Positions 41,686-45,908 of a DNA stretch of 64,000 nucleotides are shown piece after piece. The notes beneath the pieces were generated by a model that was given only the letters and a program-made list of their open reading frames with translations, was not told where the DNA came from and did not search any database. The translations under genes and the position numbers were made by a program. The stretch's first letter is position 1. Each line of letters opens with the position of its first letter. Source of the stretch: Acidobacteriota bacterium (lineage in GTDB: Bacteria; Acidobacteriota; Blastocatellia; RBC074); the NCBI GenBank assembly GCA_016196035.1, contig JACPYM010000066.1:62001-126000 (forward strand), given 5' to 3'.

Positions 41686-42603
41686 TTAAAGTTGGGTGCG
41701 GCCCGGCTTCAACCCCTCGATAATCTCGCGGTCTTGCGTGCCCTCATGGCACACGATGCACGATTGCTGCCCACGTCCGGCCAGGTCTGAAACGAGGGCA
41801 TAGGTCAAGCCGCGATCCGCCCAGGTGATGACTTTCCAGCCGTTGAGCATGTCGTAATGGAAGCGCAACCCTTTGGAGACGACCTGTTCGCCGCCCGAGG
41901 GCATGGCGACGCCATTCGCGGTCACGACCAGCGTGATCGGATGTTTGTCCATGTCATAAGCCACGAGCGCCGCGTAATCGTTGCGGAAGCCGACCAGCCG
42001 CGCGCCTTCCAAATTGTAAAGCCGCACCTGCCCCGAAGCTTCCTGATAGTTGGGCAGCTTCAAACTGAACGAGACCTTGCCCGCAAACCAGTTGGAGATT
42101 TCGGCGGGTGAAGCGCTGGCGATTTCCAGCGGCAGTTGGCCGCGCACCCGGCGCACGTGCGTATCCACGGCCATTTGCGCGAATTCGGAGGGCGCGGGCA
42201 GTGTCGTGGCGTTGCGATGTAAGACCAGCGCCCAGAAGCTCGCGAACACGGCGAAACACAAGACCGCCGCCAGGGCGAACAAACGCGCGGGGCGGAAGCC
42301 GAAGGCAGGCGGTTTGGCAGGACGCAACATTTGTTGCAGCCGTTGGCGCAGCGGTGCGGGCGCGACGAATGGTGCGGGTGTTTCAGCGAGTAACGTTGTC
42401 AGACGCGCGCGCAATTCCGGCGGCGCGGTGTAAAGCGGTTGCGCCGCGCGAATGGCTTCGATTTCCCGGCGCTCCCGTTCGTGCCACTGGCGGCACGCGG
42501 CGCAGCCTTGCAAATGCGCCTCGAAATCGTCGCGCTCGCCGTTGTGTAATTCATCGTCCAGGTACAAGGCCAACCGGACGTGGATGTTTTCGCACTGCAT
42601 CAT
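41686..42603 (-). CDS. Anti-sigma factor with periplasmic CxxCH motif
   Basis: A 305-residue protein. The N-terminal zinc-binding anti-sigma domain has Cys3, then HLQGCAACRQW (H-x3-C-x2-C, about residues 29-39). A transmembrane helix (LFALAAVLCFAVFASFWALVL) lies near 110-130. The remaining 170 residues are extracytoplasmic and carry CIVCHEG near the C-terminus, a perfect CxxCH haem c attachment motif. The sigma gene lies upstream on the same strand, separated by a repeat. A redox or haem-dependent release of the sigma factor is inferred, fitting the divergent katG. Two adjacent ATGs (42603, 42600) follow GAGAAAG. Confidence 0.85.
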   Translation of the reverse strand: MMQCENIHVRLALYLDDELHNGERDDFEAHLQGCAACRQWHERERREIEAIRAAQPLYTAPPELRARLTTLLAETPAPFVAPAPLRQRLQQMLRPAKPPAFGFRPARLFALAAVLCFAVFASFWALVLHRNATTLPAPSEFAQMAVDTHVRRVRGQLPLEIASASPAEISNWFAGKVSFSLKLPNYQEASGQVRLYNLEGARLVGFRNDYAALVAYDMDKHPITLVVTANGVAMPSGGEQVVSKGLRFHYDMLNGWKVITWADRGLTYALVSDLAGRGQQSCIVCHEGTQDREIIEGLKPGRTQL

Positions 42604-42631
42604 AGCTTTCTCGTTTGCTGATTCTTGCTGC

Positions 42632-42747
42632 ATTAGCCACAGAGGCACGGAGTCACGGAGTCACGGAGGAAGAGCATGAGCCGCGATCATCTATCTGAAT
42701 TGCTCTGTGTCTCTGTGTCTCTGTGTCTCTGTGCCTCTGTGGCTAAT
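42632..42747. repeat. GCCACAGAGGCACGGAGTC hairpin repeat, copy 2
   Basis: ATTAGCCACAGAGGCACGG is answered by its complement ending GTGGCTAAT. Inner units are expanded: AGTCACGG is doubled on one side, and TCTGTGTC occurs three times on the other. It lies between the sigma and anti-sigma genes and could lower read-through from the sigma gene. Confidence 0.85.
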
Positions 42748-42769
42748 GCTCGTCTTTTCAACTCCGTTG

Positions 42770-43324
42770 CTAGCGAATCGCCGCTGTGCCGACGCGCCAT
42801 TCGCTCAACAACGTGCGCAACTGTTCGCGCGCGCGGCCTAGCCGCGACATCACCGTCCCGGCGGGACACGCCAGGATCGTTGCAATCTGCTGATAACTGA
42901 ACCCTTCGAAATCGCGCAACACAACCACCTCGCGGTAAGGCACGGGCAAGCGTTCGATGGCGGCGCGAATTTGTTCACGCTGGATTTTTTGCAACAGCAC
43001 GAAATGCGGATCGTGCGTTTCGTGCGCGGGCCATTGCCAATGGTCTTCAGCTTCGGCATCCAATTCAACCGCGTGGCCCGCCAGCTTGGCGTGGCGGACG
43101 TGGTTGAGCCAGATGTTGCGCATGATCGCAAAGAGCCAGCTTTTCAAATTACTGTCGGGCAGCAAGCGCCCAAAGGCCCGCGCAGCGCGCAGATACGTCT
43201 CTTGCACCAGGTCTTCGGCTTCGGTGCGATTGCGCGTCAGCACCATGGCAAAACCATAGAGCGCATCCAGATACTCCAGAGCCGCCGCCGCAAAGTCCGG
43301 TTGTTGAGTGTTCGTTCGATTCAT
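42770..43324 (-). CDS. ECF-family RNA polymerase sigma factor
   Basis: A 184-residue sigma-70 of the ECF type. Region 2 includes YGFAMVLTRNRTEAEDLVQETYLRAA (about residues 23-48) and LKSWLFAIMRNIWLNHVR. Region 4 includes LPVPYREVVVLRDFEGFSYQQIA (about 125-147), the helix-turn-helix that reads the -35 element. It is paired with the anti-sigma gene downstream and divergent from katG. The promoter at 43350-43375 has the same two boxes as the one facing katG, so it probably controls itself and katG. Confidence 0.95.
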   Translation of the reverse strand: MNRTNTQQPDFAAAALEYLDALYGFAMVLTRNRTEAEDLVQETYLRAARAFGRLLPDSNLKSWLFAIMRNIWLNHVRHAKLAGHAVELDAEAEDHWQWPAHETHDPHFVLLQKIQREQIRAAIERLPVPYREVVVLRDFEGFSYQQIATILACPAGTVMSRLGRAREQLRTLLSEWRVGTAAIR

Positions 43325-43349: not shown

Positions 43350-43375
43350 TAACACGCCCGGCGCGGAATTATTCC
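43350..43375 (-). promoter_or_regulatory. ECF-type promoter reading into the sigma gene
   Basis: On the minus strand: GGAATAA (43375-43369), 12 nt, CGTGTTA (43356-43350). This places the start of transcription roughly 20 nt before the sigma ATG. The boxes overlap a GC-rich hairpin (43357-43384). An identical box pair with identical spacing is found on the other strand at 43402-43427. Confidence 0.65.
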
Positions 43376-43401
43376 CGCGCCGGGATTTTTTGGCGAAGGC
43401 T

Positions 43402-43427
43402 GGAATAAAGCAACCGATGGCGTGTTA
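43402..43427 (+). promoter_or_regulatory. ECF-type promoter reading toward katG
   Basis: GGAATAA (43402-43408), 12 nt, CGTGTTA (43421-43427). Both boxes and the spacing match the leftward site exactly. The katG start codon is 256 nt downstream, leaving a long leader (about 43435-43682) with a degenerate repeat at 43585-43613. Confidence 0.6.

Positions 43428-43640: not shown

Positions 43641-45908
<2,268 letters not shown>

Follow-up and report, generated by a model that had tools for sequence, protein, structure and literature searches.

SigH-RshA and SigR-RsrA are actinobacterial oxidative-stress ECF systems with zinc anti-sigma factors; RshA and RsrA are thiol-redox anti-sigma factors, small and soluble, and the regulon spans at least 25 genes. 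Promoters mapped for SigH follow the pattern GGAAYR-N17-18-GTT (PMC4803200). Autoregulated ECF sigma factors with an anti-sigma factor also drive katG or a periplasmic peroxidase in RpoE/ChrR-type systems, as with PSPTO_1043, which controls katG (PMC5507510), and RpoE2, which drives a periplasmic glutathione peroxidase (PMC4336711); these systems use TGATC..CGTA promoters and a ChrR-type anti-sigma factor, control a wider regulon and respond to singlet oxygen or organic peroxide signals. In Bradyrhizobium, EcfF-OsrA is an H2O2-inducible, autoregulated ECF system in which the anti-sigma cysteines are essential; its promoter is GTAAC-N14-15-CG, and the accessible portion of that report mentions no CxxCH haem motif (PMC3420878).

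Here we describe an ECF locus in a 64,000-nucleotide stretch of the genome of an Acidobacteriota bacterium (Blastocatellia; contig JACPYM010000066.1), which we refer to as the window. It resembles SigH-RshA and SigR-RsrA in that SigH is the nearest solved sigma factor, the promoter boxes are of the GGAA..GTT type (GGAATA-N16-GTT here, with boxes that match the SigH consensus and a spacer one base shorter) and the anti-sigma factor carries a zinc HxxxCxxC domain. However, this anti-sigma factor has a membrane helix and a putative extracytoplasmic CxxCH domain, and the regulon apparently consists of one operon and one enzyme. The locus shares with RpoE/ChrR-type systems a predicted autoregulated ECF and anti-sigma pair that drives a peroxide-consuming enzyme, while differing from them in promoter, anti-sigma type, apparent regulon size and proposed signal. 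Its likeness to EcfF-OsrA lies in predicted autoregulation and in an anti-sigma factor whose cysteines would matter, with a different promoter. With PerR-controlled katG genes, it has in common the same secreted katG family and peroxide defence.

Results

The sigma and anti-sigma genes

The sigma gene (42770-43324, minus strand) encodes a 184-aa protein that scored above the cut-offs of Sigma70_r2 and Sigma70_r4_2 (PF04542 and PF08281), which makes it a member of the ECF (group 4) family, and reached 108 bits against TIGR02937 (cut-off 42.9). Its nearest solved relatives were SigH chains (E 4e-28 or better). Against TIGR02947, the SigH/SigR subfamily profile, it scored 134.9 bits, below the cut-off of 251.55; judged by these scores, it is a SigH-like protein outside the curated SigH/SigR subfamily.

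The gene at 41686-42603 (minus strand) encodes the likely partner of this sigma factor, an anti-sigma factor with a zf-HC2 zinc domain, one membrane helix and a putative extracytoplasmic domain. Alignment indicates that its start is likely at 42603 (MMQCENIH) rather than at the upstream GTG at 42648. The zinc domain scored 35.6 bits against PF13490 (cut-off 22.2), placing the protein among the ZAS factors, and H45, C49 and C52 of its HxxxCxxC motif were invariant in an alignment of 16 orthologs. A structure model put the helix at residues 121-147 in the numbering of the longer ORF, and the basic N-terminal side of this helix suggests that the segment following it is exported.

A long hairpin (42630-42749), with 39-nt arms that are 87% complementary (fold z -6.4), fills the space that separates the sigma gene from the anti-sigma gene. 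With up to one mismatch, its arm TTAGCCACAGAGGCAC matched the genome 119 times, often as inverted pairs, compared to 0 matches for the reversed control. By these counts the hairpin is a dispersed palindromic repeat, and it may shift the sigma to anti-sigma ratio.

Toward its C-terminus, beyond the predicted membrane helix and so within the putatively exported segment, the anti-sigma factor has the candidate haem-c attachment motif SCIVCH (41746-41763, minus strand; residues 296-301 in the ORF that starts at 42648). The SCxVCH residues (S296, C297, V299, C300 and H301) were invariant in 16 of 16 orthologs, and the genome encodes ResB-type haem-c maturation. We take the CxxCH of the extracytoplasmic domain to carry covalent haem c, and regard the anti-sigma factor as the probable sensor.

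The same promoters and targets could instead be governed by a thiol-disulfide switch in the CxxC pair or the zinc domain, comparable to RsrA and RshA, with haem c absent. This alternative fits a SigH-like sigma factor, given that RsrA and RshA are the thiol-redox partners in those systems, and a zinc domain that scores against the RsrA profile (TIGR03988), although at 37.2 bits that score is below the cut-off of 62.5 and the protein does not qualify as RsrA-type. The cysteine upstream of HxxxCxxC is present in the window's anti-sigma factor but is substituted in 6 of the 16 orthologs, whereas the whole of SCxVCH is invariant, including a histidine for which a plain disulfide switch would have no use, and the enzymes linked to the sigma factor are mostly haem-c proteins. 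We therefore judge a thiol switch to be unlikely, if still a genuine contender, and favor a haem-c sensor based on the invariance of SCxVCH, the ResB-type maturation gene and several di-haem peroxidases encoded in this genome, and the absence of the RsrA-type cysteine in those 6 orthologs.

The tail of the anti-sigma factor was modelled without haem and at low confidence. Fold searches with the extracytoplasmic domain returned weak matches to 1vr8 and to the periplasmic regulators RseB/MucB, none of them below E 0.001; RseB/MucB ranked among the top with a TM of about 0.3, and kinship with these regulators is not established. A search of the PDB for sequence relatives of the domain found none. 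Our search of the open literature, apart from the main ECF classification (PMC7826278), turned up no account of an anti-sigma factor with haem c; the family may already be a named group in that classification.

A motif pair between the sigma gene and katG

The first-pass annotation proposed that the gap between the ECF sigma gene and katG holds one copy of GGAATAA-N12-CGTGTTA on each strand, with the same boxes and the same spacing, and our measurements bore out both the pair and the 358-bp gap, which extends from the sigma ATG (43324) to the katG ATG (43683). The predicted sigma-operon promoter is an exact match on the minus strand at 43350-43375 (GGAATAATTCCGCGCCGGGCGTGTTA; -35 GGAATAA at 43369-43375, -10 CGTGTTA at 43350-43356). 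It conforms to the class-wide consensus, its -10 box is extended by TTC as among relatives, and its -35 box begins 51 bp ahead of the sigma ATG. The predicted katG-side promoter is an exact match on the plus strand at 43402-43427 (GGAATAAAGCAACCGATGGCGTGTTA; -35 GGAATAA at 43402-43408, N12, -10 CGTGTTA at 43421-43427); its -35 box begins 281 bp ahead of the katG ATG, and its start is predicted at about 43434(+). The two -35 boxes stand back to back with 26 bp between them.

When up to two mismatches were allowed, the window held no matches beyond these two, while dinucleotide shuffles of the window gave a mean of 0.12 matches and 0 shuffles reached 2. In the 9.59-Mb genome, the only two exact matches were the pair in the sigma/katG gap. 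Taken together, these counts indicate that the pair did not arise by chance. The single 1-mismatch match in the genome was intragenic, and the 16 matches with two mismatches are background, all matches numbering 10+9 compared to 13+13 for the reversed control; a wider regulon in this genome was rejected on these grounds. The genome has seven CCP_MauG matches, but exact motif copies were confined to the sigma/katG locus. Thus, the genome-wide search envisaged in the first-pass annotation set the pair apart from chance but led to a single locus rather than a broad oxidative-stress regulon, and, on the distribution of the motif, the regulon here appears to be a dedicated one that comprises the sigma/anti-sigma operon and katG.

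A 28-bp palindrome with perfect arms, followed by a T-run on the plus strand (43357-43391, plus strand), lies over the -35 box and spacer of the sigma promoter and is, by its sequence, terminator-like, pointing toward katG. With the sigma-side -35 box inside this palindrome and GGAATAATTCC itself palindromic, the motif pair could be viewed as the operator of a dimeric repressor rather than as two promoters. We consider this very improbable: the long palindrome is limited to the window and to one relative, G004, in which the equivalent position holds an imperfect palindrome unlike it in sequence, and the boxes and spacing are like those of SigH-type promoters. Furthermore, the distance between the two copies differs among genomes, as would be expected more of two separate promoters than of a single operator.

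Comparative footprinting

We found 18 close anti-sigma orthologs within the class and read their surroundings. Each adjoined an orthologous sigma gene (46-71% identical), and many Blastocatellia relatives carried GGAATAA-N12-CGTGTTATTC upstream of the orthologous sigma/anti-sigma operon, with unconserved spacers and often with the motif on the divergent strand too. The 16 sites that we collected had nearly invariant boxes, a TTC extension downstream and a variable spacer; the invariance of the boxes is partly by construction, since the sites were gathered with the box pattern. A matrix derived from these 16 sites also found second-strand promoters in L053, L057, L074, L075, L078 and L090, and its sites outside the building set, which include the sigma side of L053, L057 and L075, scored above the maximum of 40 shuffles per region.

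Exact GGAATA-N13-CGTGTTA matched 11 times in 13 genomes, with 9 of the matches at this locus and 0 for the reversed control, and the extended motif matched 10 times in 162 class genomes, with 8 at this locus and 1 for the reversed control. An extra exact match in G004 (C128) lay inside an elongation-factor-like ORF and was taken as chance. The first-pass annotation had named a motif no more frequent than chance as the outcome that would undo its proposal; instead, the motif exceeded these reversed-pattern controls and tracked the sigma gene across genomes. That the pair is a chance resemblance, for which we found nothing in support, is contradicted by the shuffles, the reversed-pattern controls and the conservation across families, and has a vanishingly small probability.

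The arrangement extends, with the operon whole or partial, to genomes labelled Pyrinomonadaceae, Vicinamibacteria, Tectomicrobia and Binatia/Deltaproteobacteria. In several of these genomes the promoter boxes were different or unrecognised, and some orthologs (f5/f7, Binatia-like) had altered -10 boxes or no recognisable pair.

Divergent targets in relatives

katG was the divergent gene solely here and in G004, which has the katG-side promoter motif at the equivalent place and a KatG that is 83-84% identical. In most relatives, the divergent gene belongs to a di-haem cytochrome c peroxidase/MauG-type (CCP_MauG) operon, in which the MauG-type gene is followed by a Tat metallophosphoesterase gene and then by a SoxA/TsdA-type cytochrome c gene; the metallophosphoesterase (e.g. 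L053:7678-8817) is a conserved member of these operons. An alternative divergent gene encodes a second di-haem family, which has a pair of CxxCH motifs and resembles MauG weakly. G031 carries another exact motif copy, located 366 bp ahead of a vanadium bromoperoxidase-like gene (L162:903-3089), whose 606-aa product has a twin-arginine-like N-terminus and matches vanadium bromoperoxidase at E 1e-82; a transposase-like ORF lies beyond this gene. The neighbors at L050 (an esterase), at the L060 type (a subtilase) and at L067 are not peroxidases. Apart from L050 and the L060 type, the genes next to the motif (di-haem peroxidases, KatG and the bromoperoxidase) suggest that the linked enzymes are exported peroxide users. 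Thus, comparative footprinting agrees with the earlier proposal that the sigma factor acts on its own operon and on a divergent target, although KatG is not the usual target in relatives.

In one genus (L060, L063, L064 and L065), the subtilase gene is upstream of the sigma gene and co-directional with it. The promoter-like site in these four is GGAATAA-..-TTGTGTTCTC, with the boxes drifting alongside the different neighbor.

The content of the usual operon bears on the nature of the signal, which could be the state of extracytoplasmic cytochrome c (haem supply, maturation or electron overflow) rather than peroxide, with KatG or the MauG-type enzyme induced alongside. The Tat metallophosphoesterase and the SoxA/TsdA-type cytochrome c go beyond peroxide removal, and MauG-type enzymes can modify proteins too. 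However, KatG taking the place of the usual operon, and the motif copy at the bromoperoxidase gene in G031, suggest that peroxide is the common substrate, and we regard a cytochrome c-state signal as distinctly unlikely.

katG and its leader

katG (43683-45908, plus strand) encodes a 741-aa catalase-peroxidase (TIGR00198, 1117 bits; cut-off 770) that is probably exported, based on an N-terminal signal peptide read from its sequence. Secreted KatG orthologs that are 77-91% identical occur in genomes of the same family without a close anti-sigma relative. We looked for the motif upstream of katG in five genomes without a close ortholog of the anti-sigma factor (G002, G003, G005, G006 and G008), and it was absent from all of them; in G003, G006 and G008, a Fur-family (perR) gene and a rubrerythrin gene lie upstream of katG. 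PerR-like inverted repeats were found upstream of katG in L103, L109 and L111, and near-perfect PerR-like boxes (TTAGAATTATTCTAA) in L116, L117, L119, L124 and L130, from several genomes within the class. Some relatives without the ECF pair thus have PerR-like boxes or a perR-rbr-katG order, whereas the window katG, upstream of which a search for a PerR-like box found none, has neither; this comparison includes L102 and L103, which are close to contig ends, and G001, a genome that is 73% complete.

The katG-proximal leader CTGAACGGGTCTTCCGTTCGATCAAGGAGGAGTCA (43645-43682, plus strand) is common to katG genes in relatives without the ECF pair, the window katG and the G008 katG having the last ~38 bases ahead of the start codon in common, and it marks an approximate junction. 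On this sequence comparison, the simplest reading is that katG and its ribosome-binding region joined a pre-existing ECF promoter, leaving PerR-type control. At about 250 nt, the full katG leader is long, and a second promoter may lie closer to the gene. Tested for RNA structure, the leader scored z 0.30, no stronger than its shuffles, and was rejected as a structured element.

Discussion

We propose, with somewhat better than even confidence, that this locus is an autoregulated, dedicated ECF switch, in which a haem-c-type anti-sigma factor senses an oxidant and turns on an extracytoplasmic H2O2-consuming enzyme. The predicted promoters and their targets are well supported by comparison among genomes; we infer transcription by this sigma factor, haem attachment and the nature of the signal. 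While the cells are at rest, the anti-sigma factor, anchored in the membrane, would hold the sigma factor through its cytoplasmic HxxxCxxC zinc domain. Oxidation of haem c, by H2O2 or via an extracytoplasmic electron-transfer pool, would change the extracytoplasmic domain and release the sigma factor, which would then transcribe its own operon from the minus-strand promoter, as autoregulation, together with one extracytoplasmic peroxide-consuming enzyme. Here, this enzyme would be the secreted KatG, from the plus-strand promoter, and in most relatives it would be encoded by the di-haem peroxidase/MauG-type operon. As peroxide drops, inhibition by the anti-sigma factor would be restored.

An autoregulated ECF promoter paired with a divergent target is commonplace, and katG or periplasmic peroxidases are already known to be driven by ECF systems. 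Two features are unusual: a putative sensor that takes the form of a cytochrome-c-like anti-sigma factor, and a promoter that appears to have been kept as the enzyme downstream was exchanged among unrelated peroxidases. In a broader proposal, which we hold to be evenly poised between right and wrong, a family of transmembrane anti-sigma factors with a covalent haem c sensor would directly couple haem redox state or peroxide beyond the cytoplasmic membrane to an ECF sigma factor; the enzyme under the conserved divergent promoter would have been swapped among unrelated peroxidases (di-haem, catalase-peroxidase and possibly vanadium), with katG captured from PerR-type control. If true, the locus would offer a compact one-operon, one-target system for the study of extracytoplasmic oxidant sensing, as well as a case in which katG, within a set of close relatives, has exchanged PerR-type control for ECF control.
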